Part shown: piece after piece, positions 2,822 to 22,287 of the stretch
Layout: each line of letters begins with the position of its first letter
How positions within the stretch are numbered: position 1 is the first letter of the stretch
From: a virus
Direction: 5' to 3' (one strand)
IMG/VR virus record: IMGVR_UViG_3300033064_001526
Location: 1 to 23,776 of that record
DNA: 23,776 nucleotides
The notes under the pieces: model-generated
Told to the model about the DNA's origin: nothing
The model's input: only the letters and a program-made list of their open reading frames with translations
Databases searched by the model: none
Made by a program: the position numbers and the translations under genes

Positions 2822-2841
2822 GTGCGCAACTCCATGAAATT

Positions 2842-2865
2842 GGTGGGGGACCTAAGCCCCCCACC
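2842..2865 (-). terminator. G/C-run hairpin after the decoration-like gene
   Basis: GGTGGGGG (2842-2849) and CCCCCACC (2858-2865) form a perfect 8-bp stem around an 8-nt loop. It lies just after the decoration-like gene and before the zinc-ribbon gene. On the minus strand the stem is followed by AATTTC, a weak U-tract. It probably acts as an attenuator or partial terminator that lowers expression of the downstream genes. It has the same build as hairpins after four plus-strand genes. Confidence 0.55.
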
Positions 2866-2873
2866 GGGTAAAA

Positions 2874-3479: not shown

Positions 3480-4535
3480 TTACGAAGAGATCGTGGTATC
3501 GATGCCGCCCATGACGCCGTGCTTACGACGGTTAGACGTACCAATGCCGCCGAGCCACAGGATGTGCGAAACCTTCGCGTCCTGGTTCTCGGGTTTCTGG
3601 AATGGAGTCGGCGCGAAATTGGTATCGCGGTCAACCTGAATGTTCATGAACTTCATGTTGAACATATACCACGTGCCGGAACTGGTCGACTGGGTTTCTG
3701 AACCAGCCTGTACGTCAGGCACTCGTTCGTCGTGAGTTACCGGCTTGCCGTAGAAGGCGATGTTGTCGAACGGAATGTCCGCCTTTTGGTACGAAGGGTT
3801 GCGGTGACTTGCCGCCAACGCTTGTTCGTAGAGGGTGTACACGTTCTCATCCACGACGTGCATGTCGGGAGAACCGCCAGGACCACGGCTAGCCTGCAAG
3901 CGCAGAACGCGAATTTCTTTCAGGAAACCGGCGAAGGTCGTAGAGACGCTGTTGGACGTACGATTGCGCCACCACGAATGAGTCAGCTGGTTGATGTTGC
4001 CAACAGAAACCGAAGCAGTTGGGTCATAGGCCACCAGCTTAGGCAACGGGTCGAGGAAAGTTGAACCGTTAACCGACGAAGAGTAAGCCGTCGTAATGCT
4101 GGAGCCACCGGCACCGCACGTCAAACGGTAATTGAAGAACTCCTGAATGCCCATTTCAGCCTGCTTGGTTTTGCTTTCCAGCAGGGACAAAATGCGCGCT
4201 TCGCCACGGTTCTTTTTCTCTTCGAGGCTGGAAATCGCGATCGGCACCGACGCCTGACGCCATTCCCAGAATGCCGAAGTGATGCCGTCCATCGGGGTGA
4301 CGTCGAGCACGTCGTAGCCGCTGTACGAATCGGCTTGACCGAGTTCGTACATCAGCGGGACCTGCATACGGTCACCGATTTCCGAAACGAGCTTGTAGCC
4401 GCCCTCGACCTTGTTACGAAGGTAGTAGATGACAGCGTTGGTTTTGCTAATGTTGTCCTCGAGCGTACGCCGGTAATTAAACAGCGTAGTCGAAAGCAAC
4501 GAATCATATTGCAGAGAGAGTGAACTCGGAGGCAT
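3480..4535 (-). CDS. Major capsid protein (HK97-fold type)
   Basis: The product is a 351-residue protein that forms the icosahedral head shell. The N-terminal region (LLSTTLFNYRRTLEDNISKTNA) followed by YLRNKVEGGYKLVSE, MYELGQADSYSGYDVLDV and SIxSLEEKKNRGEARILSLLESK matches the pattern I know from a common metagenomic phage capsid family annotated as 'phage major capsid protein'. In that family a GGxxxxxPLxY segment is followed by SYSGYDxLD and a tryptophan-containing strand. The length is in the normal range. It follows the scaffold gene by 28 bp and has an AAGGGG ribosome site at proper spacing before the ATG at 4535. The HK97-like fold is established for tailed phages generally; assignment of this protein rests on pattern recognition and gene order. 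Confidence 0.85.
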   Translation of the reverse strand: MPPSSLSLQYDSLLSTTLFNYRRTLEDNISKTNAVIYYLRNKVEGGYKLVSEIGDRMQVPLMYELGQADSYSGYDVLDVTPMDGITSAFWEWRQASVPIAISSLEEKKNRGEARILSLLESKTKQAEMGIQEFFNYRLTCGAGGSSITTAYSSSVNGSTFLDPLPKLVAYDPTASVSVGNINQLTHSWWRNRTSNSVSTTFAGFLKEIRVLRLQASRGPGGSPDMHVVDENVYTLYEQALAASHRNPSYQKADIPFDNIAFYGKPVTHDERVPDVQAGSETQSTSSGTWYMFNMKFMNIQVDRDTNFAPTPFQKPENQDAKVSHILWLGGIGTSNRRKHGVMGGIDTTISS

Positions 4536-8850: not shown

Positions 8851-10437
8851 TCATCGACGTCCGTTAGCTTGCTTCTTGCGGAATTCAATCATTCGCGCCC
8901 TAACTCCTTGGAACGACTTGGCCGGACCCTTAAACGACGTACGGGTAGCGGCAGGTCGTGACATAGCCCCGTAACGCAGACTATCGAGCGCATGATCGTC
9001 ACTCCTGGTGTCAATGTCTTCCGGGTCATGCTTAGAAGATACAGCCGCAGACAGTGAACGAATCAGGTAACGGCACGACGGGTGAATAATAAGGCCGGGA
9101 CGTCCGTCTTCCCGCATCTTAAGCAGGTTACGAACCTGATTCCACCCTTGGCGGCGGTCGTTGTCGCCCATCATGATGGGCATGCCTTCGTTAGCGAAAG
9201 TTTCTTGCATGGTCTGACCAGTGATCTTGCCGTCTTTAACCGAGTTAATGTCGGGACCTTTCAACGCTGGGTCGGACACCGCGTAACGGCGAGTAGGGGG
9301 CAGACTACCCCTAGTCCAATGCCCCAAACCTAGAATCTCGTCGTACTCGCGCACCTTGTTACAGACAACGTAGGGCAGCGCGTGGGAAAACTTGAACTCG
9401 TGCCGAATATAGAGGACACCGTCAGGGAGGCAGGCCCACCACAAAATAACACCAGGTTGGATATAACCCCAGTCCATTGACAAAAACCACTCACAGTTGT
9501 CGCCTGGATCGCCAAAATCAGACACGTGCACTTGTGTGGTAAACTCGTCGAAGAAAGTGCCAGCTACGACATCCCAGTCGTTGTAACGAAGCTGTTGAAA
9601 GCGCCACGGTTGCAAAATAGCAAGGTCGGCCTCGTAACGCTTGCCTAGATACGGGTTGTCGTCTAACCCACCCGGAATGTAGTGCCAATCAGCGGGGTTG
9701 TACAGGTCTTTTAAGGCTGGGGCATAGTCGTCCCAGTTCGGGGTGTGTTCGATAAAGAAATCCCGGAGCATTGATGCGGCGGGACCACCTGGGTTGGTAT
9801 AAATGCGGAACCGAGCGCCACCAGCATCTTCGACTTCCTGCTTTGTGGTACGGGCGCGGGTAGATAACTCCAACAAAAACTGAGGCTGGAACGTGACGCC
9901 CTCATCGACGGCAATATCGTCGCGCTCACGACTGAGGTATTTGTCGAGGTCATCCTTGTCATCCAAGTGACCACCCTCGATGACCGCTCCGGTGTCGTGA
10001 AACTTCATTTCACGGGCAGTAATCGAGAACTCTACATTGTGACCGTGGGCGCGGAACATCTTGGCCTCACGCTCCATCAACCGGAAGTGGTGCTTCTCTA
10101 ACTCGCCCCACGTACGGCGGAGAAGAAGTCCCTCGTAATTAGGGATGCGAAGTGCGCGCCGGTACATAGACCAGCGACAAATATGAGACTTAGTAGAACC
10201 AGCAGCACCGCCTCCAAGCAGGTTTCGGGCCGTGCACTCTTCAAACTCGACCTGCTTGGGGAGAGGGACGAACAGGTATTTGAACTTGTAGCTGTCTGGG
10301 TCGCCTTCGATGCCCTGTCGGACCAGCACCGAGTAGTTGGCCTGCCTGACACGGCACGGCTCAGACGAGCACCAATACATGCCGTCAATCTTGACGAACT
10401 TGCCGCCACACCAACAGCACTTGGGTTCGGTCGCCAT
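8851..10437 (-). CDS. terL: Terminase large subunit
   Basis: This is the ATP-driven DNA-packaging motor and nuclease, 528 residues. The ATPase domain shows a Walker A-like loop GGGAAGSTKS (residues 75-84) and a Walker B-like DDIAVDEG (173-180). The nuclease domain shows FLSMDWG near 318-324, with the catalytic Asp at 322, and a C-terminal DDHALDSLRYG motif. The N-terminus carries a Cys cluster (C7, C8, C10, C23, C28) resembling a zinc ribbon, which is not part of the core terminase. The Walker A has Ala-Gly-Ser-Thr where Gly-Ser-Gly is commoner. The ATG at 10437 overlaps the TAA of the preceding gene. Downstream genes are portal and capsid, as expected. Confidence 0.93.
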   Translation of the reverse strand: MATEPKCCWCGGKFVKIDGMYWCSSEPCRVRQANYSVLVRQGIEGDPDSYKFKYLFVPLPKQVEFEECTARNLLGGGAAGSTKSHICRWSMYRRALRIPNYEGLLLRRTWGELEKHHFRLMEREAKMFRAHGHNVEFSITAREMKFHDTGAVIEGGHLDDKDDLDKYLSRERDDIAVDEGVTFQPQFLLELSTRARTTKQEVEDAGGARFRIYTNPGGPAASMLRDFFIEHTPNWDDYAPALKDLYNPADWHYIPGGLDDNPYLGKRYEADLAILQPWRFQQLRYNDWDVVAGTFFDEFTTQVHVSDFGDPGDNCEWFLSMDWGYIQPGVILWWACLPDGVLYIRHEFKFSHALPYVVCNKVREYDEILGLGHWTRGSLPPTRRYAVSDPALKGPDINSVKDGKITGQTMQETFANEGMPIMMGDNDRRQGWNQVRNLLKMREDGRPGLIIHPSCRYLIRSLSAAVSSKHDPEDIDTRSDDHALDSLRYGAMSRPAATRTSFKGPAKSFQGVRARMIEFRKKQANGRR

Positions 10438-10736: not shown

Positions 10737-11248
10737 GGTTTCACCTCGACTACTTGCGCATCAATGGCGTCGTTAATTTGTTTTTGTGAGGGAACAGGGA
10801 CAGAGTGAATCGGGTTGGCGGTGTTGTTCGGCATGCCGATGATCAGAGAGAAGGATGTCTGCGGAACCTGCTTGTCGCGTTTCTTCTCCAGAATCCCTAG
10901 CCGATCCATGACCTCCAACGACTCTTCGACATTAGCGTCCTTGATGATGCGGTCAGCGAGAATCTCAGCACCGCCCTCAAGTCGCAGCTTAGCCGCCTTA
11001 GTGGTTGACTGGTAGCGCCACAGGAACTTGCGCAGGATTTCGGGCGACCGCTGCATTTTGGTAGCGATAGCATCAACGTTGCCCAACTCGTGGTATAGCT
11101 CGAGAGCAATTACCTTTTCTTCCATGGTCATGGCGGTGACTTTGAGACTCGGAGCGCGCTTTTCCTTCATCAAGGTAGAGATGGGCTTCAACCCTTTGGT
11201 GCCTTGTGGCTTCTGTGACCACGCCTTTTTTACTTTTCGGTCAGTCAC
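10733..11248 (-). CDS. Putative terminase small subunit (171 aa)
   Basis: The product is a 171-residue basic protein. Residues about 42-80 (MEEKVIALELYHELGNVDAIATKMQRSPEILRKFLWRY, in parts) look like a helix-turn-helix. A predicted helical region (90-125) follows, then a looser C-terminus. Small terminases typically combine an HTH DNA-recognition domain with a helical oligomerisation segment, and the gene lies two positions before the large terminase in the same coupled operon. I do not recognise a specific family, so another DNA-binding protein is possible. The start is GTG at 11248, 3 bp after the regulator gene stop, with no strong ribosome site of its own. Confidence 0.6.
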   Translation of the reverse strand: MTDRKVKKAWSQKPQGTKGLKPISTLMKEKRAPSLKVTAMTMEEKVIALELYHELGNVDAIATKMQRSPEILRKFLWRYQSTTKAAKLRLEGGAEILADRIIKDANVEESLEVMDRLGILEKKRDKQVPQTSFSLIIGMPNNTANPIHSVPVPSQKQINDAIDAQVVEVKP

Positions 11249-11251
11249 GGC

Positions 11252-11449
11252 CTATGCCACCTTGCGTCGCTTCTTGCCGATTCGGTCCAAGTCTTTGAAC
11301 AGCTGGTCGAGGGTGATGCCCATGACTAGGGCAATCTCCCTGGCGGCGGTTAGCGAGGGCCGACGCTTGCCGTTGAAGATTTTCGAGATATGCGCCAGCG
11401 AGTACCCCGAGCGGCGGTGAATGTGCGAGAAGTTGAGTGCGCGTGACAT
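11252..11449 (-). CDS. XRE-type HTH regulator (65 aa)
   Basis: This small DNA-binding protein has one helix-turn-helix of the Cro/C1 (XRE) type. RRSGYSLAHISKIFNGKRRPSL followed by AREIALVMGITLDQLF matches the usual HTH pattern, in which the recognition helix precedes an NGKRxPSL turn. It is hardly longer than the HTH itself, so it has no separate dimerisation or cleavage domain. Two ATGs are possible: 11458 lies only 2 bp after AGGAG, whereas 11449 is spaced 11 bp and is preferred. It is the first gene of the morphogenesis direction and sits beside a dyad-rich control region, so it probably regulates one or both arms. The target is inferred, not shown. Confidence 0.75.
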   Translation of the reverse strand: MSRALNFSHIHRRSGYSLAHISKIFNGKRRPSLTAAREIALVMGITLDQLFKDLDRIGKKRRKVA

Positions 11450-11473
11450 GTAAGGCATCTCTCCTAATTATAG

Positions 11474-11502
11474 AGAATACCACAGACTGAACGGGGAGTC
11501 AA
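11474..11502 (-). promoter_or_regulatory. Sigma-70-like promoter for the regulator/terminase unit
   Basis: On the minus strand TTGACT (11502-11497) and TATTCT (11479-11474) are 17 bp apart, so the transcript would start near 11467. That is just upstream of the AGGAG ribosome site of the XRE-type gene. The hexamers are good but not perfect. Confidence 0.5.
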
Positions 11503-11534
11503 GTAGGAAAGAACCGGACGCCGGGAGAAGGTAA

Positions 11535-11555
11535 AGTCTTAAACTTGCGAAGACT
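11535..11555. repeat. Inverted repeat in the control region
   Basis: AGTCTT (11535-11540) and AAGACT (11550-11555) are perfect inverted arms around 9 bp. It lies between the two minus-strand promoters and could be a weak hairpin or protein site. Confidence 0.3.
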
Positions 11556-11591
11556 GGTTCCCCTACAACCCTTCCCGCACAAGCAGCTTTT

Positions 11592-11621
11592 ATTTTACCA
11601 CAGTTGTTACGATGCTGTCAA
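11592..11621 (-). promoter_or_regulatory. Second sigma-70-like promoter, minus strand
   Basis: TTGACA (11621-11616) is followed after 18 bp by TAAAAT (11597-11592) on the minus strand. It is a stronger match than the promoter at 11474-11502. It lies 20 bp from the 18-bp dyad at 11640-11657, so a repressor on that dyad could affect it. A transcript from here would have a leader of about 130 nt before the XRE-type gene. Confidence 0.55.
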
Positions 11622-11639
11622 GTGTTGGTTCGGTTAAAT

Positions 11640-11657
11640 TTTGAACAATCGTTCAAA
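11640..11657. promoter_or_regulatory. Candidate repressor operator, perfect-arm dyad
   Basis: TTTGAAC-AATC-GTTCAAA has 7-bp perfect inverted arms and a 4-bp centre, the size and symmetry of a Cro/C1-type operator. It lies about 190 bp from the start of the XRE-type gene and just upstream of the minus-strand promoter. A weak rightward TTGAAC/TTTACA pair (17-bp spacing) overlaps it. The pairing of this site with the local regulator is inference. Confidence 0.5.
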
Positions 11658-11801
11658 CGTTACTTTACAAGGTTAGTTCAGGGGACTCAATTGTGGATTA
11701 CTCGTGGAGCGACCTTGGGCGATCCACGCCGTCCCACCTGACCCCCTTCCCAGTTTTCCCGATTTTAAAAAAACGAACATACAGGTAGATATATGTTTGG
11801 C

Positions 11802-11817
11802 CCGTTAACTTTAACGG
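11802..11817. promoter_or_regulatory. Dyad CCGTTAA-CT-TTAACGG, candidate activator site
   Basis: The two 7-bp arms are perfect and 2 bp apart. The site lies about 90 bp upstream of the -24 box at 11905, a usual distance for an enhancer-binding protein of sigma-54 promoters. It could equally be an operator for another regulator. Confidence 0.4.
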
Positions 11818-11904
11818 TTTGTCAATATTTTCAGTAATATCTCGCAACGCGAGTGGACAGTGGGGATATATATAGGGATAGGGCGCGGGGGGGTAGGGGG
11901 CGGC

Positions 11905-11920
11905 TGGCACGACGATTGCA
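11905..11920 (+). promoter_or_regulatory. Sigma-54 (-24/-12) promoter A
   Basis: TGGCACGACGATTGCA matches the RpoN consensus TGGCACG-N4-TTGCW at every fixed position, with GG and GC at the obligatory spacing. Transcription would begin about 12 bp after the GC, giving a leader of roughly 100 nt before the ATG at 12037. No other good promoter is seen for that gene. Confidence 0.75.
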
Positions 11921-12036
11921 ATTACTAGGGTAAGGACGCGCGATCGGCAGGTAGCCGGGAGCGCGCAGAGGGACGCGCGGGGACGCGCGGACCGAATCGG
12001 CGGATTCCCGCCGACCTCACCGAAGGAGATCACACC

Positions 12037-12294
12037 ATGGGTAACTCACTGCCGAAGCTGCCGTCACTGCCGAAGATGAAGTCCGTCAACGCTTGCGAGT
12101 GCGGATGTGGTGGTCGCACGGGTAACCGGTTCGTCCCGGGGCACGACGCGAAGCTCCTCGGCCTGACCAAGCGGGTCGCGGCCGGGGTGATGACGCTGGA
12201 CGAGGTCGCGGAATGGGGCGGCGAGGGCGTCGCCCAGGCCACGGCGAAGGCGATGGGCCTGACGTGGACACGCGCGGAGGCCAAGACGGCCTAA
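12037..12294 (+). CDS. CxCxC-PGHD family protein, copy 1 (85 aa)
   Basis: The product is an 85-residue protein. Residues 5-14 are a Pro/Leu/Lys leader (LPKLPSLPKM). Residues 20-37 hold the core shared by four proteins in this window: C20, C22, C24, T28, F32, P34-G35-H36-D37. Three Cys plus one His at fixed spacing suggest a small zinc site, although metal binding is inference. The C-terminal part (about 38-85) is helical and acidic-to-basic. A GGAG ribosome site precedes the ATG; the gene has its own sigma-54-like promoter upstream and a G11/C8 hairpin right after its stop, so it is a self-contained cassette. I recall similar short motifs in other phage proteins but know of no function. Confidence 0.8.
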   Translation: MGNSLPKLPSLPKMKSVNACECGCGGRTGNRFVPGHDAKLLGLTKRVAAGVMTLDEVAEWGGEGVAQATAKAMGLTWTRAEAKTA

Positions 12295-12300
12295 GACGGC

Positions 12301-12326
12301 GGGGGGGGGGGCAAGCAACCCCCCCC
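12301..12326 (+). terminator. G11/C8 hairpin after copy 1
   Basis: A run of 11 G (12301-12311), a 7-nt spacer CAAGCAA and a run of 8 C (12319-12326) can form an 8-bp all-GC stem, 7 bp after the stop codon. There is no U-tract, so it may act as a pause, processing or 3'-end-protecting element rather than a classic intrinsic terminator. Confidence 0.55.
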
Positions 12327-12396
12327 ATCGACTGAGCATTGAAGGGCAGGTCGGAGCTTCGGTTCCGGCCTTTCCTTGAGCGCATCAGTTGCGACT

Positions 12397-12415
12397 TCAG
12401 ACCTCTGATTGAGGC
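12397..12415 (+). repeat. Cassette repeat R1, copy 1
   Basis: TCAGACCTCTGATTGAGGC occurs identically at 13115-13133. In both places it follows a PGHD-family gene and its hairpin. CCTC-TGATT-GAGG inside it can form a small hairpin. Confidence 0.7.
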
Positions 12416-12450
12416 ATTCCGGTTCCGGGGCCGGAGGACTATTTACGACG

Positions 12451-12470
12451 TCAACGTTCATTCATTCATT
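12451..12470 (+). repeat. Cassette repeat R2, copy 1
   Basis: TCAACGTTCATTCATTCATT occurs identically at 13169-13188, about 36 bp after repeat R1 in each cassette. It contains tandem TCAT units. Together with R1 it marks a duplicated segment. Confidence 0.7.
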
Positions 12471-12489
12471 CGTGCGTTGGTCCCAATCA

Positions 12490-12596
12490 CCAATCACCAG
12501 TCACAGGTCGGTTAATCGGTTAGGTCCAAAGGTAACTGCGTTACTTTTGTTTGTCCCTTTGTCACTTTTTTGGGTTACCAATCACCAACACAGGTC
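12490..12596 (+). repeat. Two imperfect CCAATCACCA-n-CACAGGTC elements
   Basis: CCAATCACCAGTCACAGGTC (12490-12509) and CCAATCACCAACACAGGTC (12578-12596) differ by one indel/substitution area. They lie about 120 and 30 bp upstream of the -24 box of promoter B, so they could be activator-binding sites. Extra CAATCACC strings occur at 12483-12490 and near 13204. Confidence 0.45.
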
Positions 12597-12626
12597 AAAA
12601 ATAATACACGTTGATGATGCTGGCGC

Positions 12627-12642
12627 TGGATCGCGGCTTGCA
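12627..12642 (+). promoter_or_regulatory. Sigma-54-like promoter B
   Basis: TGGATCGCGGCTTGCA keeps the GG and GC dinucleotides at the exact -24/-12 spacing and a perfect TTGCA, but has ATC in place of CAC. It lies about 100 bp upstream of the second cassette gene, the same distance as promoter A from the first. Confidence 0.5.
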
Positions 12643-12740
12643 TTATCGGGGGCGGGGGCGCGCCGCGCGCGGCCACCCCGGCGATCCGAATCGGACGCCG
12701 ACCCGGAGGATTAACCACCGGGAGTCAGTAGGAGAACACC

Positions 12741-13064
12741 ATGATGAAGTCACTACCGAAGCTGCCGTCACTCCCCAAGATGGACCGCGTGAACCGCTGC
12801 GAATGCGGATGCAAGGGGTTGACCGGCAACCGATTCGTTCCGGGCCACGACAGCAAGCTCAACGCCCGGGTGAAGCGGGTGAACGCCAACGTGTTCGACC
12901 CGATGAAGCCGGGCGACGTGACCGCGCAGCTCGACGCGGCGACCAACTGGCTGACGGTGAGCGAAGTCGAGGCGATGGCGGCGGCGATGAAGGCCGACTG
13001 GACCGAGGAGGCGTGGCTCGAGCGCTCCGACGCGGCGACGAGCGCGACGGGCACCGGCAACTAA
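12741..13064 (+). CDS. CxCxC-PGHD family protein, copy 2 (107 aa)
   Basis: This is the closest relative of copy 1. The leader LPKLPSLPKM is identical at residues 5-14, and the core C20, C22, C24, T28, F32, P34-G35-H36-D37 falls at the same residue numbers, with the TGNRFVPGHD stretch identical. After residue 40 the two diverge; this copy is 22 residues longer and its C-terminus is acidic and helical. A weak AGGAG site precedes the ATG at 12741; a second ATG follows directly. The surrounding promoter, hairpin and repeats match those of copy 1, indicating tandem duplication followed by divergence of the tail. Function is unknown; a small zinc-binding protein is the best guess. Confidence 0.8.
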   Translation: MMKSLPKLPSLPKMDRVNRCECGCKGLTGNRFVPGHDSKLNARVKRVNANVFDPMKPGDVTAQLDAATNWLTVSEVEAMAAAMKADWTEEAWLERSDAATSATGTGN

Positions 13065-13074
13065 GCGACCAACC

Positions 13075-13098
13075 GGGGGCGGGACCGACACCGCCCCC
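13075..13098 (+). terminator. GC hairpin after copy 2
   Basis: GGGGGCGG (13075-13082) pairs perfectly with CCGCCCCC (13091-13098) around an 8-nt loop, 10 bp after the stop. No U-tract follows. It is equivalent in position to the hairpin after copy 1. Confidence 0.55.
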
Positions 13099-13114
13099 AA
13101 TTCACCGCATCGAC

Positions 13115-13133
13115 TCAGACCTCTGATTGAGGC
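13115..13133 (+). repeat. Cassette repeat R1, copy 2
   Basis: Identical 19-bp copy of the repeat at 12397-12415. The flanking sequence is also alike (GAC before it, CTCCGG/TTCCGG after it). Confidence 0.7.
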
Positions 13134-13168
13134 GCTCCGGCTCAGGAGGGAGAGAACTGCCTCAAAAT

Positions 13169-13188
13169 TCAACGTTCATTCATTCATT
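13169..13188 (+). repeat. Cassette repeat R2, copy 2
   Basis: Identical 20-bp copy of the repeat at 12451-12470, in the same order after R1. Confidence 0.7.
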
Positions 13189-13387
13189 GGTCACATCACA
13201 TCCCCAATCACCTTTGTCATTTAGTCAAGGGGGTCAAAACCTAAGTCAGCGCGGGCGTCACACGGGTATCGCGCCCCGCTCCCCGCCATCTTCACATGCG
13301 TCGTTCCATGTGTTAACTTTACTTTCAACCCTCTTCCCAAGGTCACCAATGGGATGTTAAACTGGAATACTTTGACAATGCCCGCGC

Positions 13388-13403
13388 TGGAACGGCTCTT
13401 GCA
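13388..13403 (+). promoter_or_regulatory. Sigma-54-like promoter C
   Basis: TGGAACGGCTCTTGCA differs from the RpoN consensus by one base (A for C at the fourth position) with correct GG/GC spacing. It lies about 68 bp upstream of the GTG at 13471 and would drive the 13.5-16.0 kb operon. A GC-rich stretch beginning CCGGGG follows at the expected transcription start. Confidence 0.65.
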
Positions 13404-13470
13404 GTTCCCGGGGCGGGGCGGCGCGCTCCCCGGCGGCGAGGCCGGACACAATGTAACGTTGGGAGGATAA

Positions 13471-13722
13471 GTGAACAACATTGATGATAGTGATGCTGAA
13501 GTCACCAAGGCATTAACCAGAAACGAGATCAAAGACGCGCTGGAGAGAACGGTTGACCACATCCAGTTAAGCGGAATCCTAGACCTGCTAGCGGAGATCG
13601 CACGGGACAAAGCGCAGCACATCGAGAAAACGTGGCAGGACAGGCCGCTGGCATCCAAGTGGACCAGCGCCAGTGACAGGCTCGAACAGATGGCAGGTCA
13701 GATGTGGAAAGAGGCCTTGTGA
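13471..13722 (+). CDS. Hypothetical protein, first gene of operon (83 aa)
   Basis: This is an 83-residue, largely helical, mixed-charge protein (ALTRNEIKDALERTVDHIQLSGILDLLAEIAR, in parts) with no Cys and no membrane segment. I recognise no family. The start is GTG at 13471, with GGGAGGA a few bases upstream. Its TGA overlaps the GTG of the next gene. It is the promoter-proximal gene of a run of eight coupled small genes. A DNA- or protein-binding helical bundle is possible. Confidence 0.65.
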   Translation: MNNIDDSDAEVTKALTRNEIKDALERTVDHIQLSGILDLLAEIARDKAQHIEKTWQDRPLASKWTSASDRLEQMAGQMWKEAL

Positions 13723-13952
13723 AGCCACTGCCGCCGCTCACCAAGGAGGCCGAAGCAACGGTGCACTACGGGGAGGGACGCGTGGATGAGAACACGCCAT
13801 TCACCGAGGTAACGCTGCGGCTCAGGCAACGGCAGGGCGTGGTGCAATTGAGCCACGCAGAGATCGCGGCAACGGTACTGAACGTGCTGCGGACGGTCGG
13901 ATTCGAATGGCTCGAGCTGACCGCAGTCGAGGAACGGGAAGAAGGACAATGA
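13719..13952 (+). CDS. Hypothetical protein (77 aa)
   Basis: The product is a 77-residue protein that begins VKPLPPLTKEAEATVHYGEGR, echoing the Leu-Pro leader of the PGHD proteins. A short alpha/beta-looking body follows (EVTLRLRQRQGVVQLSHAEIAATVLNVLRTVGFEWLEL). No known domain is seen. GTG at 13719 overlaps the upstream TGA (GTGA). A GTG at 13704 in the same frame is possible but has no better ribosome site. Its own stop overlaps the next ATG. Confidence 0.6.
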   Translation: MKPLPPLTKEAEATVHYGEGRVDENTPFTEVTLRLRQRQGVVQLSHAEIAATVLNVLRTVGFEWLELTAVEEREEGQ

Positions 13953-14464
13953 GCGCATTTGCATACAAGCTGCCGCCGCTACCCAAGCTGCCGCGCAACC
14001 GCGAGTCGCACGACGGACTGCGATTGCCACGGACAGCTAAGGCGCGCGACCTGCCCGACCTGCCCGTGATCGACACGCGGTCGGATGGGCCGATCGCGGA
14101 AGACGAGGTCAGCCCCAAGGACAACAACTGGGGCGGGACCAACATCGGCCAGTGGTTTGAGACGACCGACGCGAGACACTCGGTGGGCGGACGCTGCTGC
14201 CGATGCGGTGGACTCAAGCCAGCGTACAAGCTGCGCTACGCGCTCGGGCCATTCGGCCGATGGGAAGGCTGGGCATGCGGTCCGTGCCGCAACGAGCGCA
14301 AGGGAGTTGAGTTCAGCAAGCAAGCGCGCAAAGGCAAGACGCGCAAGGCACCCAACTTCGCCAAGCCGCTGCCCCCGACCGAGTACGAGAAAGCCAGGAC
14401 GTGGCTCAAGAGCAACGAGCACCTGATGGCGTGGGAAGGCGAAGGAGGAGCAACATGGGCATGA
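13949..14464 (+). CDS. Zinc-ribbon-like hypothetical protein (171 aa)
   Basis: The product is a 171-residue basic protein. The N-terminus has a Leu-Pro leader (KLPPLPKLP, residues 7-15) like that of the PGHD-family proteins. The middle contains CCRC near residues 89-92 and CGPC about 23 residues later, a two-knuckle arrangement typical of a zinc ribbon, with aromatic and basic residues between. The C-terminal third is Lys-rich, then acidic. ATG at 13949 overlaps the upstream TGA, with GAAGGA before it. It may bind nucleic acid; no family is recognised. Confidence 0.65.
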   Translation: MSAFAYKLPPLPKLPRNRESHDGLRLPRTAKARDLPDLPVIDTRSDGPIAEDEVSPKDNNWGGTNIGQWFETTDARHSVGGRCCRCGGLKPAYKLRYALGPFGRWEGWACGPCRNERKGVEFSKQARKGKTRKAPNFAKPLPPTEYEKARTWLKSNEHLMAWEGEGGATWA

Positions 14465-14643
14465 AGGTAAGCAAGTGCGACGTCTGCAAGTGTGACCTGA
14501 CCGGCAAGCCGCACGTGGACGGCGCGACACAAATGGGGCCATGGGCCAACATGTGCACCGACTGCCACAACGAAGTCGGATGCGGACTCGGCACGGGACG
14601 CGGCCAGAAGTACGACGGCAACGACAACAAGGAAGGGGGCTAA
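14455..14643 (+). CDS. Small double-CxxC protein (62 aa)
   Basis: This 62-residue protein has CDVC near residues 8-11, a further Cys at 13, and CTDCH near 35-39, a compact probable zinc site. A Gly/Asp/Asn-rich tail follows. AAGGAGG lies 6 bp before the ATG at 14455, which is preferred over the ATG at 14461 that forms an ATGA overlap with the preceding stop. The ends overlap the 171-residue protein by 10 bp. The function is unknown. Confidence 0.65.
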   Translation: MGMKVSKCDVCKCDLTGKPHVDGATQMGPWANMCTDCHNEVGCGLGTGRGQKYDGNDNKEGG

Positions 14644-14646
14644 ATC

Positions 14647-14877
14647 ATGAGCGACTGGGACAACGAAGACATGGACTACGACAACCCGTACGAACGCGAC
14701 GACGTTGAATTCGCGGACCCGGGCGGCAACTCGGCACTGAGGGCGGCAAGCGAGAGCAACCCGAGGAACCTGCCCTGCCCGAACTGCGAGAAGGAGAACC
14801 GGTTGACCCCGGCTGACAGAGCGCGGGGTTACCAGTGCGATGAATGCGCCGACCGCACAGAGAGAGGATACGACTGA
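14647..14877 (+). CDS. Acidic zinc-ribbon protein (76 aa)
   Basis: The product is a 76-residue protein with an Asp/Glu/Tyr-rich N-terminal half and a C-terminal zinc ribbon made of CPNC (about residues 44-47) and CDEC (about 64-67), with RLTPADRARGYQ between them. That spacing is typical of a rubredoxin-like zinc ribbon. The stop (TGA) overlaps the next ATG (TGATG). The acidic arm could mimic nucleic acid or bind a basic partner; this is speculation. Confidence 0.65.
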   Translation: MSDWDNEDMDYDNPYERDDVEFADPGGNSALRAASESNPRNLPCPNCEKENRLTPADRARGYQCDECADRTERGYD

Positions 14878-15116
14878 TGACGCTATGGAACTGGCTCGTC
14901 ACTGGCTCCGACGTACAAACGCTGCCTAAAGACTGGCTGCGCGACAAAATGCCCGCACATGACGACTGGACGCGTAGTCAGCAGCAACCGGGAATGGCGT
15001 TGATAGCGGCGGATACCAAAGCGACCGCTCAACGGCAGTTTTGGGAACGGCTAGCCGATCAGAAACCGCGCGTCGTCAAGAACAACATCAGCCCGTGGAA
15101 AGTGAGCAGCAAGTGA
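14877..15116 (+). CDS. Hypothetical protein (79 aa)
   Basis: This 79-residue protein is Trp-rich at the start (MTLWNWLVTGSDV) with a helical middle and a basic C-terminus. No domain is recognised. ATG at 14877 overlaps the upstream TGA, and its own TGA overlaps the next ATG, so it is translationally coupled on both sides. Confidence 0.6.
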   Translation: MTLWNWLVTGSDVQTLPKDWLRDKMPAHDDWTRSQQQPGMALIAADTKATAQRQFWERLADQKPRVVKNNISPWKVSSK

Positions 15117-15463
15117 TGACAGATATCAGCGACGATTTCAAGATAGGCGACGAAGTTTGGATTCCAGAACTTGATGGGCGCAACAGCGAGTGGAACACAT
15201 GGACCATAGCCGGAGTCAACGAGATCGGCTGGCTGTGGCTCACGCTTAAAACAGCGCGCAACGAAAAAGACGGCGAGAATGTGATCGAGGACTACGGCGG
15301 CTACAACAGCGACATGATCATGGAGCGCGGTCAATTTGACTGGGAACCGCGACTCATAGACGAACGCAGCAGCCTGAACTGGCGCGGTCTGAACTGGAGC
15401 GGCATCGCACCGATTAACGTCAAGATTTGCAAAGTGGCGATAGATAAGAGGTTTGAAGCATGA
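15116..15463 (+). CDS. Hypothetical protein (115 aa), beta-rich
   Basis: The product is a 115-residue protein with the segments IGDEVWIPEL, TWTIAGVNEIGWLWLTL and WEPRLIDERSSLNW. It is Trp-rich and looks like a small beta-barrel of the SH3/Tudor kind, though that fold guess is only from the pattern. It is coupled to both neighbours (TGATG at the start, ATGA at the end). No family is known to me. Confidence 0.6.
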   Translation: MTDISDDFKIGDEVWIPELDGRNSEWNTWTIAGVNEIGWLWLTLKTARNEKDGENVIEDYGGYNSDMIMERGQFDWEPRLIDERSSLNWRGLNWSGIAPINVKICKVAIDKRFEA

Positions 15464-15783
15464 TAGCCGACGAAAACGAACCGATGCCCGAGATCCGCTA
15501 CGTTAACGCTTACGTGGTGAGCCGACGCTACGGCGGACCCGAAGAAGGCGGCTGGTACTACGACTGCGGCACGTTCCTCGACGGAGTGCCGTTCCGACCC
15601 GACATCGAAGGGTCCGAGGAAGCCGCGAAGAAGTTACTGAAAGAGGTGTGGGAACCGGCGTACCCGCCTGACCCGCGCAATAGGCAGGGCCGTTACAGCG
15701 TGAACGGCGGCGACGACCTGGAACTGTACGTTGATGATGAGCGCGGCAGCAACTTTCCGACTGAGAGGCCACACTATGAGTAA
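15460..15783 (+). CDS. Conserved small phage protein (107 aa)
   Basis: The product is a 107-residue acidic protein. YVVSRRYGGPEEGGWYYDCGT near residues 18-38 resembles a motif I have seen in small phage proteins of unknown function (RxYGGPEEGGWWFD type). The C-terminal part contains GRYSVNGGDDLELYVDD, likely beta-strands. ATGA coupling precedes it. No biochemical activity is known for such proteins. It overlaps the next gene by 8 bp. Confidence 0.65.
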   Translation: MIADENEPMPEIRYVNAYVVSRRYGGPEEGGWYYDCGTFLDGVPFRPDIEGSEEAAKKLLKEVWEPAYPPDPRNRQGRYSVNGGDDLELYVDDERGSNFPTERPHYE

Positions 15784-16036
15784 CGACAAGATTCGGTTTT
15801 TGAACGCGGTCACCGGCGACGAGTTGACTCAGGAACAGATGATCGAGAACATTGATCGGTCACTTGAGGCCGCAGCTGCTGACATCACAGCGCTACAGCG
15901 GTTCAAGTCGAACTTCTACGCCGGAAAGTTGAAAGACGGCGACAGCTTCATTGACGTCACTCCGGCCCTAGACGAAGGTTACGACCGCACCGGTCCGGTG
16001 GAGGTGGTGGTAGAGGTCTATTCCGACGAGGACTAG
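15776..16036 (+). CDS. Hypothetical protein, last gene of first operon (86 aa)
   Basis: The product is an 86-residue acidic protein. Residues about 17-45 form a helix with heptad-like spacing (QMIENIDRSLEAAAADITALQRF), followed by a beta-type C-terminus (VEVVVEVYSDED). GAGAGG precedes the ATG at 15776, inside the end of the preceding gene. No family is recognised. It is followed by a regulatory gap rather than another coupled gene, so it closes the operon. Confidence 0.6.
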   Translation: MSNDKIRFLNAVTGDELTQEQMIENIDRSLEAAAADITALQRFKSNFYAGKLKDGDSFIDVTPALDEGYDRTGPVEVVVEVYSDED

Positions 16037-16043
16037 GCGGCTT

Positions 16044-16083
16044 GTCTCCCGGAGAGGTCACCAGTTGTCTCCCCGAGAGGTCA
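16044..16083 (+). repeat. Pair of 17-bp repeats upstream of promoter D
   Basis: GTCTCCCGGAGAGGTCA (16044-16060) and GTCTCCCCGAGAGGTCA (16067-16083) differ by one base and start 23 bp apart, near two helical turns. Each contains a short dyad (TCTCC-C-GGAGA in the first). Three more copies lie upstream of promoter E at 18543-18604. Their position about 30-70 bp before the -24 box suggests binding sites for an activator. Confidence 0.6.
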
Positions 16084-16113
16084 GTCAAAGCGCTCTCTCG
16101 ACGTGGAAGCCGC

Positions 16114-16129
16114 TGGCACGGCGCTTGCA
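16114..16129 (+). promoter_or_regulatory. Sigma-54 promoter D
   Basis: TGGCACGGCGCTTGCA matches TGGCACG-N4-TTGCW perfectly. It is 60 bp before the ATG at 16189 and drives the 16.2-17.6 kb operon. CCCCCCGGGGGGG follows at the expected transcription start. Confidence 0.8.
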
Positions 16130-16188
16130 GCCCCCCGGGGGGGCTGGGCGCTGCCCCGGCGGAACGTGGAGCATGACAAGGAGAAGTG

Positions 16189-16398
16189 ATGTTTGAAAAG
16201 TTGATCGGACAGTGGGTGCACTTCCCGGATTCGAGCGGGAACCTTCACGAAGGAACTATTGTAGCGGCATGGCGCGAGAAAAAGGAAGGAATTCGAATCG
16301 CCGTCCAGTGCAAGAACAACAGGTTTTGCAATGCGTGGCTCGAGAACGTGACGGCAGGGCCGGTGATCAGGCCGAGGGAACTGCAGGGAGGCATCTGA
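16189..16398 (+). CDS. Hypothetical protein (69 aa)
   Basis: The product is a 69-residue protein, beta-rich with an SH3-like look (LIGQWVHFPDSSGNLHEGTIVAAW), then CKNNRFCNAWLENVTAGPVIRP. It has two Cys, about 6 residues apart. ATG at 16189 lies 5 bp after AAGGAG; the GTG at 16186 is only 2 bp away and less likely. The stop overlaps the next ATG (TGATG). No family is recognised. Confidence 0.65.
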   Translation: MFEKLIGQWVHFPDSSGNLHEGTIVAAWREKKEGIRIAVQCKNNRFCNAWLENVTAGPVIRPRELQGGI

Positions 16399-16694
16399 TG
16401 AAGAAAGTTTACTGGACAGTGCGCGTGGTGCAGTTTACAGACCACATTAAATACTCGACCAACCATTTGCCCGGGGTCTGGGTTGAACAGCTCCGGCACT
16501 TGGGCTACTTAAGGGAACTGGCTACATTCGACAGCCCCAACTCCGACGAACGCCTCGTCTTCTACTTCTCATTCCCGGGTTCAACTCGGGGAGTTAACAC
16601 ACAACGCTGGGCCGTGGCAGAAGCTCAACGCATGCGGTCATTCGGCATCAACGCGGTTGCTGCGCCCACTTGTGCGTACGGAGACGAACTATGA
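16398..16694 (+). CDS. Hypothetical protein (98 aa)
   Basis: The product is a 98-residue protein of alternating strands and helices (KKVYWTVRVVQFTDH, VFYFSFPG, WAVAEAQRMRSFGI), consistent with a small alpha/beta domain. No motif is known to me. It is coupled at both ends (TGATG at the start, ATGA at the end). Confidence 0.6.
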   Translation: MKKVYWTVRVVQFTDHIKYSTNHLPGVWVEQLRHLGYLRELATFDSPNSDERLVFYFSFPGSTRGVNTQRWAVAEAQRMRSFGINAVAAPTCAYGDEL

Positions 16695-16981
16695 GAGTCG
16701 CGACCCTAGCCGACTGGCGTAAAAGCCAGATCGTTTCACTCAAGGCGCAACTCCGCGTCGTGACGGTAGAATACGAACGACTCAGGACCCAAGTTGCGGA
16801 CATCAACGTTCTGATCGCTAGTCTCGCCGAAGTCACGCTTGAAAGCAGAACGACGCACAATGACAGCAAGTCGGAACCGAAGGAGTCTAAGCCCAAACGC
16901 AAGTTGTCGCATTCTCACAAACGCGCGTTGATGGCCGGTCTCAAGCGGTGGCAGGCCAAGAAAGGCAAAGGCAATAAATGA
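16691..16981 (+). CDS. Coiled-coil protein with basic tail (96 aa)
   Basis: Residues about 10-50 form a coiled-coil-prone helix (SLKAQLRVVTVEYERLRTQVADINVLIASL). The last 35 residues are Lys/Ser/Arg-rich (KPKRKLSHSHKRALMAGLKRWQAKKGKGNK, in parts), a likely DNA-binding tail. ATG at 16691 overlaps the upstream TGA; its TGA overlaps the next ATG. A small dimeric DNA-binding protein is plausible. Confidence 0.6.
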   Translation: MRVATLADWRKSQIVSLKAQLRVVTVEYERLRTQVADINVLIASLAEVTLESRTTHNDSKSEPKESKPKRKLSHSHKRALMAGLKRWQAKKGKGNK

Positions 16982-17196
16982 ATAGCAGACCGCCGATGAT
17001 AGCGCGGCCCGTTTTCGTGATGTACGTGTCAAAACGTCGTTGCCGCTACAACCCGTCGTTACAACGTTTCAACGATTTGCCGACCGTACTGCAACTCGAC
17101 GTAGCAAACAGATGGTTGACGCGCAACCCGATAGGCGACATGCTCAACTTCGACGACGTGTCGCTGCCACCAGTCAAGAAAAGGAGAAAACGATGA
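16978..17196 (+). CDS. Small basic hypothetical protein (72 aa)
   Basis: The product is a 72-residue basic protein: MYVSKRRCRYNPSLQRFNDLPT followed by VLQLDVANRWLTRNP and a PVKKRRKR tail. It is likely helical and may bind nucleic acid. It is coupled on both sides by ATGA overlaps, with AAGGAGA just before the next start. The family is unknown. Confidence 0.6.
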   Translation: MNSRPPMIARPVFVMYVSKRRCRYNPSLQRFNDLPTVLQLDVANRWLTRNPIGDMLNFDDVSLPPVKKRRKR

Positions 17197-17615
17197 CATT
17201 TTGCCACTGCGTGAAGTCTGACACCGACTTGTGCGAGTTCTGCTCTACGATGTTGTGGGCGACGAAGCTAGAACACCGCCTAAAGTCAGTCACGGAACGT
17301 CTCAGCAACATTGGTGACATCGTCGATGATATGTCCGACGAGAGCCGCATTGAAGAACTGGTGACGGATGCGGTAGAGTCCATTAAAAAAGACCTCGAAG
17401 ACCTTGCCAGCGTCGAATATGTGGACGAAGAGTTGAATAGCGCGGTAACTGACCTTGAAAGGGCGGACGAAACCCTGACCGACGAAATGGACGACATCAA
17501 CACCGAAGTTTCCGAGCAAGCCGATAAACTCAAACGTTTCGTCAACAGCGTTTCCCGGATGACGCTTTGGCAGCGCCTGAAGTGGCTGGCTACCGGATTG
17601 AGTCCCCTGAACTAA
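17193..17615 (+). CDS. Cys-cluster coiled-coil protein (140 aa)
   Basis: The product is a 140-residue protein. The N-terminus carries CHC (about residues 4-6) and CEFC (about 14-17), a possible zinc knuckle. Residues 25-120 are an unbroken acidic coiled coil with repeated Leu/Ile/Val heptads, and the last 20 residues (RMTLWQRLKWLATGLSPLN) form an amphipathic Trp-rich helix that might contact membrane. AAGGAG lies upstream of the ATG at 17193, which overlaps the preceding TGA. It is the last gene of this operon. The function is unknown. Confidence 0.65.
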   Translation: MTFCHCVKSDTDLCEFCSTMLWATKLEHRLKSVTERLSNIGDIVDDMSDESRIEELVTDAVESIKKDLEDLASVEYVDEELNSAVTDLERADETLTDEMDDINTEVSEQADKLKRFVNSVSRMTLWQRLKWLATGLSPLN

Positions 17616-17632
17616 ACTTCGAGGAGGGGTAC

Positions 17633-17661
17633 TTGACAAGGAAGCAAGTCGCGTGTTAAAA
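17633..17661 (+). promoter_or_regulatory. Sigma-70-like promoter before the 17.74 kb gene
   Basis: TTGACA (17633-17638) and TTAAAA (17656-17661) are spaced exactly 17 bp. Transcription would begin near 17669, directly ahead of a G-rich leader (17672-17702) with two GGGGGG runs, and about 70 bp before the GTG at 17741. It lacks sigma-54 boxes, so this unit is probably timed differently from its neighbours. Confidence 0.65.
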
Positions 17662-17740
17662 TGAAGGTCTTCCGGCGGGGGGAGGCGTGGAGGGGGGCGG
17701 CGGCTCCCGAGTTCAATTTTTTTGGAAGGAGGTTAGAACT

Positions 17741-18199
17741 GTGAAGATTCAAATAAACGCACTGGGCGAGGTTTCCGAAGACGACCGGTTACTCTCTTTG
17801 CGCGAAGCCGAGGCACTGGTCGAGTTGGAAAGCCGCGAGGGTATTTTGATTCGCGACTGGAACCGTCTCGACGCCGACTACGGCAGCAACCTGTTTCGTT
17901 TCTACGGGTACACAACTGCGGAAGACACCCGTATTCTTGACTTGGAGATGGAGTTCACTTTCCCGGCCAACGACGGGGATGTGCGAACGCGACTGCGAAG
18001 TTTGTGCGACTCGTTCGGCGCGACGTGGGAAGTAATGGACGTGCGAATCGAGGAGCCGGACGAGCAGCCCGAAGTTCAAGTAGCGTTCAGGCTAAACGTG
18101 TTTGGACAAGATCACGAGGGCGTCGGCAAAGTGGTCAAGCGCTGGCGCGACGAAACTACTAAACGAGGTTTAAACCACTATTGGGTGAGTCTCCTATGA
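17741..18199 (+). CDS. Hypothetical protein (152 aa)
   Basis: The product is a 152-residue acidic alpha/beta protein. A possible ferredoxin-like pattern is seen in LDLEMEFTFPANDGDVRTRLRSLCDSFGATWEVMDVRI and VQVAFRLNVFG, i.e. strand-helix-strand pairs, but I do not know the family. GTG at 17741 follows a strong GGAAGGAGG site. Its stop overlaps the ATG of a 26-codon ORF. It is the first gene under the sigma-70-like promoter at 17633-17661. Confidence 0.65.
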   Translation: MKIQINALGEVSEDDRLLSLREAEALVELESREGILIRDWNRLDADYGSNLFRFYGYTTAEDTRILDLEMEFTFPANDGDVRTRLRSLCDSFGATWEVMDVRIEEPDEQPEVQVAFRLNVFGQDHEGVGKVVKRWRDETTKRGLNHYWVSLL

Positions 18200-18276
18200 T
18201 GACATTTTGGCGACGGTACAAATTTTATCGAGCTTGTGGATTCGGACCGTTCAAATCCCTGTGGAGAGCGTGGTAA
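18196..18276 (+). CDS. Very small Trp/Arg-rich protein (26 aa)
   Basis: A 26-codon frame starts at ATG 18196 and overlaps the TGA of the preceding gene (ATGA). It encodes a basic aromatic peptide built as MTFWRRYKFYRACGFGPF plus a short SLWRAW end. I recall similarly built short basic peptides with a central GF/GL turn in other phages, which supports it being real, but the function is unknown. A second ATG follows at 18199. Confidence 0.5.
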   Translation: MMTFWRRYKFYRACGFGPFKSLWRAW

Positions 18277-18306
18277 CCAAGGTGGCGGCTGACGAGGACA
18301 TCGACT

Positions 18307-18696
18307 ATGCGAAGCATCACGAAATATGACTTAACCCAGACGCTGAGCGTTTTGAACCGTCTCAGCGGCATTGCGCAGCCAGGGCATGACACGCCGGGAA
18401 GCTGGCAAATCGGCTGGGCCTACGGCGGGTGTCAGTTGGAGCGGGTGGCGAATACTGGCGGGGTGCATAGCTTCGGCGGCTTTGGCACGAAGCGCGAAAC
18501 TCTCTCGCGGATGTTAGCTATGATCGACGGCGTCAGAGAGCTGTCTTTCCCGGAGGTCACCGCATTGTCTCCCGGAGAGGTCAACCCGTCTCCCGGAGAG
18601 GTCACGGAAAGTTCCGGCGGGGCGGCACGGCCCTTGCAGCTCTCCGGGGGTGGCAGCACCCGCCGCTTGTCGAGGGTACCGAACAATGACGGTTAA
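18307..18696 (+). CDS. Conserved small phage protein with repeat-derived C-terminus (129 aa)
   Basis: Residues 1-80 resemble a widespread small phage family of unknown function: MRSITKYDLTQTLSVLNRLSG, then AYGGCQLERVANTGGVHSFGGFGTKRE and LSRMLAMIDG. Relatives I remember stop shortly after this point. Here the frame continues for about 45 residues of low complexity, including SPGEV units, because it reads through the 17-bp repeats at 18543-18604, promoter E and the start of the next gene. The tail is therefore probably a by-product of regulatory sequence. Ribosome-site signal is weak. The fold-family likeness is from memory. Confidence 0.6.
   Translation: MRSITKYDLTQTLSVLNRLSGIAQPGHDTPGSWQIGWAYGGCQLERVANTGGVHSFGGFGTKRETLSRMLAMIDGVRELSFPEVTALSPGEVNPSPGEVTESSGGAARPLQLSGGGSTRRLSRVPNNDG
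18543..18604 (+). repeat. Three 17-bp repeats upstream of promoter E
   Basis: GTCTTTCCCGGAGGTCA (18543-18559, degenerate), then two perfect copies of GTCTCCCGGAGAGGTCA (18567-18583 and 18588-18604). The perfect copies are 21 bp apart, two helical turns, and identical to the first copy at 16044-16060. The last copy ends 18 bp before the CGGCAC of promoter E. Confidence 0.65.
18623..18638 (+). promoter_or_regulatory. Sigma-54-like promoter E
   Basis: CGGCACGGCCCTTGCA has the GG and GC at exact -24/-12 spacing and differs from consensus only at the first base. It lies 48 bp before the ATG at 18686 and inside the 3' end of the overlapping upstream frame. CCGGGGGTGGCAGCACCC follows, able to form a GGGTG/CACCC hairpin. 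Confidence 0.6.
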
Positions 18697-18883
18697 AGAG
18701 CTAATCGAAAAGCTGTCCCACGAGCCACTTGATGCCAAAGTGCTGCTGGTGGACCGCGTGGGACGATTAATTGAAGCGCGGCACGTTTCATTCGCGTGGG
18801 CCGAGGAGGGGATCGCCAACGCGTGGATCGAGCGGTCGATGAGGTTGAGCACGGAGGTGCAGACGGCGGTAAAGATTCAGTAA
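18686..18883 (+). CDS. Conserved small phage protein (65 aa)
   Basis: The product is a 65-residue protein. The start MTVKELIEKLSHEPLDAKVLLVD matches a common phage/bacterial small-protein pattern (MTVxELIxxLxxxPxDAxVxVxD) of unknown function. ATG at 18686 is chosen because the match begins there; further-upstream starts would run through the promoter hairpin. It is followed by a 150-bp structured leader rather than another coupled gene, so it forms a single-gene unit under promoter E. Confidence 0.65.
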   Translation: MTVKELIEKLSHEPLDAKVLLVDRVGRLIEARHVSFAWAEEGIANAWIERSMRLSTEVQTAVKIQ

Positions 18884-18904
18884 GCAAGGCGCAGCCTGTG
18901 CTGC

Positions 18905-19017
18905 GTGGAACCCATGACGGGATGCGTAGAGTAGCTGACCCAGCAAGACCAGTGAAAACACCCGGTGTGGGTTCCACGGAGCGCAGGGCGTTCCAACCGC
19001 GAGGATCAACCTTGCGG
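18905..19017 (+). other. Structured leader upstream of PGHD copy 3
   Basis: GTGGAACCCA (18905-18914) and TGGGTTCCAC (18968-18977) are perfect 10-bp inverted arms 53 nt apart. A second hairpin, CCGCGAGG (18997-19004) with CCTTGCGG (19010-19017), has one G-U pair and a 5-nt loop, and ends 4 nt before the AAGGAGG of the next gene. The 150-bp gap has no gene or good promoter. It may be a regulatory 5' leader or a small RNA. Confidence 0.45.
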
Positions 19018-19033
19018 CACCAAGGAGGCAGTT

Positions 19034-19534
19034 GTGAGCAGGAACAGACGTAACAAGAACGTTGGCGGAGCGGACTCGGTCGAAGTGACGAAGGTCACTA
19101 AGTTCGTGACGGACGCAGAAGCGAACGCAGCGTTGGCAGACGTGGCCAAGGTTGTCAGCATGGCTGACCGCAGAGAGGCGGACGCGAAGAAGAAGGCACC
19201 CAAGGCGCTCAAGGCGCTCAAGGATGGGCGCGTCAAGCTGCCGCCGTTGCCGAGGGGCGCGAACAAGCAGAAGCCGCTGGTCCCGTGCGGGTGCGGATGC
19301 GGTTCGCAGACGCGCTCGAAGTTCGCACCCGGGCACGATAGCCGGTTGCGCGGATGGGCACTCCGGGTGGCGCGGAACATGGTGAAGCTAGACGAGATCG
19401 TAACCGTGTACAAGTGCTCGGAGGGTGAGCGCAACGCGGTTGAGGCGCACATCAAGCAGCTGAAGAAGGACGGCCTGTGGGAAGCGCTCAAGGACCCGCA
19501 GGCTCCCGCCAAGAAGACTGCCACCGCTGAATAG
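19034..19534 (+). CDS. CxCxC-PGHD family protein, copy 3 (166 aa)
   Basis: This copy is longer. Residues 1-65 are a Lys/Ala-rich helical arm, residues 68-74 the Leu-Pro leader (KLPPLPR), and residues 85-102 the core with C85, C87, C89, T93, F97, P99-G100-H101-D102. The remaining part (103-166) is helical and basic and continues the family with GWALRVARNMVKLDEI. GTG at 19034 lies at proper spacing from AAGGAGG (19022-19028); the frame continues upstream but only through the structured leader. A GC hairpin follows the stop. The Ala/Lys-rich arm resembles nucleoid-type tails, so DNA binding is a possible role, not shown. Confidence 0.75.
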   Translation: MSRNRRNKNVGGADSVEVTKVTKFVTDAEANAALADVAKVVSMADRREADAKKKAPKALKALKDGRVKLPPLPRGANKQKPLVPCGCGCGSQTRSKFAPGHDSRLRGWALRVARNMVKLDEIVTVYKCSEGERNAVEAHIKQLKKDGLWEALKDPQAPAKKTATAE

Positions 19535-22265: not shown

Positions 22266-22287
22266 TTCTCGAACGGAGGCTCGAGAA
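22266..22287 (+). promoter_or_regulatory. Hairpin presenting the ribosome site in its loop
   Basis: TTCTCGA (22266-22272) and TCGAGAA (22281-22287) are perfect 7-bp arms. The 8-nt loop ACGGAGGC contains the GGAGG ribosome site, and the 3' arm ends on the A of the ATG at 22287. It could control translation, or be a protein-binding operator overlapping the start. Confidence 0.5.

Follow-up and report, generated by a model that had tools for sequence, protein, structure and literature searches.

Candidate sigma-54 promoters along the small-gene arm of an uncultured soil-type phage, and a sigma-54 activator gene in its sister phage

The 23,776-base linear virus record IMGVR_UViG_3300033064_001526, the whole of which we call the window, comes from an uncultured, soil-type phage, the remaining ~38 kb of whose genome lies outside it. 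The terminase, portal and major head protein genes are in the left arm (minus strand), and many small genes without an assigned function are in the right arm (plus strand). Five sequences on the right arm resemble the -24/-12 promoters of bacterial sigma-54 (RpoN), whose consensus is TGGCAC-N5-7-TTGCT (PMC12316311). A preliminary description of this DNA had named these five plus-strand sites, and all are present as it wrote them; as it also held, four lie in gaps between genes and the one at 18623 lies within the 3' end of an upstream open reading frame (ORF; 18307-18696), and no minus-strand match above 14 bits was found in the window. The -24 GG and -12 GC stand at fixed spacing within TGGCAC-N5-TTGCW in all five. 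Every site faces the next gene and ends 47-116 bp ahead of a plausible start (116 bp before 12037, 98 before 12741, 67 before 13471, 59 before the ATG at 16189 and 47 before the ATG at 18686). Table 1 gives the coordinates.

Table 1. Positions of the candidate promoters, associated repeats and genes in the window.
Feature	Position	Strand	Remarks
Candidate sigma-54 (-24/-12) promoter 1, TGGCACGACGATTGCA	11905..11920	+	20.0 bits; precedes gene 12037-12294
Candidate sigma-54 promoter 2, TGGATCGCGGCTTGCA	12627..12642	+	14.6 bits; precedes gene 12741-13064
Candidate sigma-54 promoter 3, TGGAACGGCTCTTGCA	13388..13403	+	17.5 bits; precedes operon from 13471
Candidate sigma-54 promoter 4, TGGCACGGCGCTTGCA	16114..16129	+	20.7 bits, window maximum; precedes operon from ATG 16189
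Candidate sigma-54 promoter 5, CGGCACGGCCCTTGCA	18623..18638	+	14.9 bits; precedes genes 18686-18883, 19034-19534
Conserved 52-nt promoter block (site and GC-rich start region)	12624..12675	+	repeat family D2
Conserved 52-nt promoter block	13385..13436	+	repeat family D2
Conserved 52-nt promoter block	16111..16162	+	repeat family D2
Conserved 52-nt promoter block	18620..18671	+	repeat family D2
Possible enhancer dyad TCTCGCAACGCGAGTGGACA, promoter 1	11840..11859	+	looser match; GGACA at -49 relative to site
Putative enhancer dyad TCTCCCGGAGAGGTCA, promoter 4	16045..16060	+	exact repeat
Putative enhancer dyad TCTCCCCGAGAGGTCA, promoter 4	16068..16083	+	23 bp from 16045 dyad
Degenerate putative enhancer dyad, promoter 5	18545..18559	+	repeat D3
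Putative enhancer dyad TCTCCCGGAGAGGTCA, promoter 5	18568..18583	+	repeat
Putative enhancer dyad TCTCCCGGAGAGGTCA, promoter 5	18589..18604	+	21 bp from 18568 dyad
Small Cys/PGHD-motif protein, putative sigma-54 unit 1	12037..12294	+	homologues G001:5666-6022, 2477-3013
Paralogue of 12037-12294 protein, putative sigma-54 unit 2	12741..13064	+	sequence comparison
Small, often overlapping genes, putative sigma-54 unit 3	13471..16036	+	ORFs
Small genes, putative sigma-54 unit 4	16189..17615	+	ORFs
Small gene and PGHD-family gene 19034-19534, putative sigma-54 unit 5	18686..19534	+	ORFs, family comparison
Sigma-70-type promoter TTGACA-18-TAAAAT, head of leftward structural arm	11592..11621	-	11/12
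Sigma-70-type promoter TTGACA-18-TAAAAT, inside sigma-54 arm	17633..17662	+	11/12
Terminase large subunit, left arm	8851..10437	-	PHROG 979, E=3.6e-25
Major head protein, left arm	3480..4535	-	PHROG 9953, E=2e-44

The values of the scoring matrix are approximate, having been set from the general consensus instead of a published table; in an informal positive control, the matrix recovered the site ahead of a prpB-like gene beside prpR in viral contig L114. The preliminary description had proposed a matrix scan with a shuffled control, and the sigma-54 reading survived it: five sites in the window score above 14 bits, whereas 200 shuffled sequences held 0.47 such sites on average and never more than 4, and three score above 16 bits, for which the shuffles gave 0.12. 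No other match in the window scores as high as any of the five named sites, the next (at 3351, 12.6 bits) being without the -24 GG. As a natural control we scored 445 kb of more distant related phages with the same matrix, which gave 0.16 matches above 14 bits per 24 kb and at most one same-strand match per locus. A looser count of consensus matches with up to three mismatches shows no excess in the window (39 observed, 40 expected), as it would if the sites were chance matches in GC-rich sequence; however, the matrix excess, the rate in the relatives, the identity at consensus positions and the conservation of position and strand in a sister phage (below) contradict that explanation, which we find scarcely credible.

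The sister phage, G001, is a 61,579-base record found through a capsid search, its capsid protein being 75% identical to that of the window; no close relative was found by terminase alone, with alignment required. Its ends overlap by 127 bases, 126 of them identical, so its genome is probably circular, and it is collinear with the window across both arms. Its two best matrix matches are on the right-arm strand, ahead of members of the CxCGC...PGHD protein family: the one at 6125 (minus strand, 19.6 bits) is the counterpart of promoter 1, ahead of the orthologous gene, and the one at 3227 (minus strand, 15.1 bits) is the approximate counterpart of promoter 5, ahead of the homologue of 19034-19534. 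The GG and GC are invariant in eight sites of the two phages. Among these eight, identity between the phages is 0.81 at the twelve consensus positions, a value inflated for the G001 sites, which were chosen by the matrix, compared with 0.32 over the 40 bases upstream, 0.47 in the spacer and 0.47 downstream; neither the downstream similarity nor the synteny is affected by that choice. Selection thus appears to act on the twelve consensus positions.

Promoters 2-5 each lie within a GC-rich repeat of 52 nt, all of one family, that runs on beyond the -12 element, and these four sites probably share ancestry by duplication. Such blocks might instead be operators bound by a phage repressor or some other DNA-binding protein, copied along with gene cassettes and only incidentally like sigma-54 promoters, and the extent of the repeat, the inverted repeats in the start regions and a small helix-turn-helix protein encoded at 11252-11458 would all suit such a role. 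Identity is, however, concentrated on the twelve positions that define sigma-54 promoters while the spacer varies, all sites face the next gene, and the same arm of the sister phage holds a sigma-54 activator gene; we therefore judge the operator explanation unlikely. Ahead of promoters 2 and 3, after the first two PGHD genes, stand copies of a 77-nt repeat (12397-12473 and 13115-13191, 77% identical) with a CCTC-N5-GAGG dyad, which could be terminator-like or a distant activator site.

Sigma-54 promoters require an ATP-driven (AAA+) activator, and two features of these phages fit that dependence. The first is a set of dyads. Five copies of TCTCCCGGAGAGGTCA, one of them a variant and another degenerate, stand in the window, always upstream of promoter 4 or 5 and nowhere else, at a spacing of 21-24 bp. 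These tandem dyads, which like the sigma-70-type promoters were absent from the preliminary description, look like activator-binding sites. Their GGWCA tails lie at -57/-34 and -67/-43/-22, and a related repeat, of the CCGAGGACA type, recurs at -87, -55 and -32 of the best G001 site; GGWCA repeats at ~23-bp spacing in both phages suggest one type of activator. Of the ten other sense copies of GAGGACA in G001, three are no more than ~110 bp away from its two remaining sites (P about 5e-5), a count that leaves out the copies that suggested the motif, the motif itself having been picked after the first site was seen. A search for the exact dyad in viral contigs gave nine single matches and no repeats, which we treated as chance.

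The second feature is the activator gene of G001. Its 392-residue product has Sigma54_activat (Pfam E=7.2e-61) and AAA lid domains, intact Walker A and B motifs and a GSFTGA loop as in several aligned Acidobacteriota relatives, and known sigma-54 activators are its closest solved relatives. The N-terminus is short, and the C-terminal domain, through which the protein presumably binds DNA, is conserved with no Pfam match. The gene is on the right-arm strand between genes that have homologues in the window, and it is therefore most likely a phage gene rather than flanking host DNA. A structure prediction from the single sequence had a mean pLDDT of 38 and was discarded. Other candidates were set aside: activator matches in viral contigs L113-L115 look like host DNA flanking prophages, a Helicobacter match looks like host DNA, and the annotated matches examined in the phage collection are mostly host-like genes. 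No sigma-54 factor gene was found in the window or in G001.

Taken together, these sequence comparisons support well the idea that the five sites are sigma-54 promoters, and we consider it likely that the small-gene arm is transcribed with host RpoN and switched on by an activator at the upstream dyads. In such a scheme the right arm would have at least five -24/-12 promoters for RNA polymerase holding host sigma-54; an AAA+ enhancer-binding protein would bind the upstream dyads, clearest at promoters 4 and 5, and touch the closed complex through its GAFTGA-type loop, spending ATP on opening, so that the arm would stay silent until the activator was present or switched on. The structural arm and one right-arm unit would be read from sigma-70-type promoters, so that the phage would have two programmes under separate control. 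A near-consensus sigma-70-type promoter (11/12) also lies inside the structural arm at 8847 (minus strand). In G001, TTGACA-18-TAGAAT at 3842 (minus strand) occupies a place similar to that of the window promoter at 17633, just ahead of the last G001 sigma-54 site, and the order of promoters thus appears similar in both phages. The preliminary description's sigma-54 interpretation accordingly stands as regards the excess over shuffles, the conservation in a collinear sister and an activator encoded by that sister; its link to nitrogen or stress and its designation of the arm as early gained no support.

Several observations weigh against this scheme. The four sites within the 52-nt repeat are not independent, and no clear dyad accompanies promoter 2 or 3. 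G001 has two strong sites only, since its third, at 5264 on the same arm and strand (12.2 bits), does not stand out from background by score and owes its inclusion to position and flanking repeats; moreover, some of the G001 repeats are downstream of the site, including the three GAGGACA copies near the other two sites. A search around the activator's Acidobacteriota relatives gave no convincing dyad copies, and five distant phage relatives (L119, L128, L134, L135 and L137) have no sites in the parts read and no activator. Finally, no activator gene was found in the 23.8-kb window, and none separates the flanking genes, which adjoin each other at the syntenic place (one flank match is weak, E=4e-4). 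A phage-encoded AAA+ activator, one of the options that the preliminary description had raised, is seen in sister phage G001 only, where the gene most likely belongs to the phage and was probably acquired from an Acidobacteriota-type host regulator; the window phage would encode its activator in the unseen ~38 kb or have it supplied by the host. It is quite possible, though we lean against it, that the sites are genuine sigma-54 promoters for which the window phage relies solely on a resident host enhancer-binding protein, the G001 gene being a recent passenger. The uninterrupted flanks in the window, the smaller number of strong sites in G001 and the insert-like position of the G001 gene, which adjoins another unmatched gene, speak for a passenger, whereas the size of the unseen part of the genome and the GGWCA repeats of similar ~23-bp spacing common to both phages speak against it.

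The genes that follow the promoters include a recurring family. Members come after sigma-54 promoters in both phages, in the window directly at promoters 1 and 2 and one gene later at promoter 5. The family has an invariant CxCGC...T...F.PGHD motif (window 12037-12294, 12741-13064, 19034-19534 and 22287-23099; three copies in G001) and weakly matches PHROG 5477, of unknown function; a search for further relatives of these genes gave nothing useful. Elsewhere in G001 (52814-55282; L105 12814-15282), a DEAD/Helicase_C_2 helicase gene is split by an intein-like domain (Pfam Intein_splicing). Scans for tRNAs and Rfam families gave no hits.

The host is probably an Acidobacteriota bacterium, because of the origin of the activator gene and one Acidobacteriota assembly with a contig that holds a phage distantly related to this one (terminase 37%). 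The C-terminal domain of the G001 activator was found in Acidobacteriota (46 of 297 genomes, at up to 49% identity) but not in Myxococcota (0 of 189 genomes). Acidobacteriota also usually carry rpoN (57 of 60 genomes). The Acidobacteriota activators that share this domain (L219-L230) are sometimes encoded as divergent pairs, the two tested have no Pfam match there, and the domain motif is FWxxVYPxxxxREITRxxVRxLVxxGLExxxGNYKxxxxLFNMxxxDYKRFLNFLRxxxC.

Similar sites occur more widely among viral contigs, where a set of 94 hits first taken for chance was enriched in further sites. An apparently unrelated 192-kb phage, G799 (L263-L272), has some twenty sites of the form YTGGCACG-N4-TYGCA at 29353-30767, 91381-109044 and 121795-128043, and TGATA follows most of them. 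In the stretch from about 91 to 128 kb they are oriented outwards from a single point near 96.5 kb; two shorter records that share its sequence (G800, L066; G801, L049) also have such sites. No activator or sigma-54 gene was detected in G799. Its sites are possibly sigma-54-like promoters in a second phage lineage or another class, and the arrays suggest that a sigma-54 strategy may have arisen more than once. Dense, very strong clusters on both strands (L045/G802 9093-18452, L061 7748-8704, L037 3277-4097 and L024 5584-5897) may represent decoy arrays or an origin, or else bacterial DNA included in the record. Were the window sites likewise decoys, titrating host RpoN holoenzyme off host genes, the two-strand clusters in L045 and L061 would offer a parallel; however, the window sites are single and co-oriented, each 47-116 bp ahead of a start and two with dyads, which makes such a role very unlikely.

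In taking over transcription, phages commonly rely on sigma-70 promoters, a polymerase of their own, or modifiers of the host polymerase, and to our knowledge no described phage has a genome arm built on sigma-54 promoters; a search of the literature available to us, covering sigma-54 activators encoded by phages as well as sigma-54 promoters in phage genomes, gave no match. Leaning very slightly against it, we raise the idea of a phage lineage with a private sigma-54 regulon, in which a captured host enhancer-binding protein acts at dyads before the phage's own -24/-12 promoters and one arm is ATP-timed while the other remains on sigma-70. A phage arm under sigma-54 would depend on an AAA+ activator, an almost leak-free switch, and infection might be coupled to a host signal. 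Acidobacteriota are a major soil group, and a limited literature search found no phage-focused papers on them; the system would offer a handle on their phages.

Compared with bacterial sigma-54 promoters, the window sites have the same invariant GG/GC, TTGCA -12 box and spacing, but they lie in a phage genome, five within 6.7 kb, each ahead of tiny phage genes. Dyads upstream of two of them recall NtrC- or PspF-type enhancers; they differ in being close, at about -60/-83 from the presumed start, and in that some promoters have no visible dyad. The Salmonella Gifsy-1 prophage and host RtcR likewise link a phage to sigma-54-dependent transcription, with prophage genes affecting expression of a host operon, whereas we found no claim there that sigma-54 drives the prophage's own genes (PMC9879122). 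Gut phage MT121960 has an activator-like gene (L260 19770-20684) that keeps GAFTGA but has an altered Walker A (GETGTDKE) and adjoins a primase-like gene; no comparable promoters were found in the part scanned, and the gene may have a replication role. PHROG 7998 likewise groups phage proteins that match the sigma-54 activator domain (E=4e-53). The G001 protein shares Sigma54_activat, the AAA lid, Walker motifs and GSFTGA with receiver-less PspF-like activators, and its C-terminal domain with those of Acidobacteriota (L219-L230); it differs from PspF-like activators in its short N-terminus, in a C-terminal domain without a Pfam match, and in being encoded by a phage.

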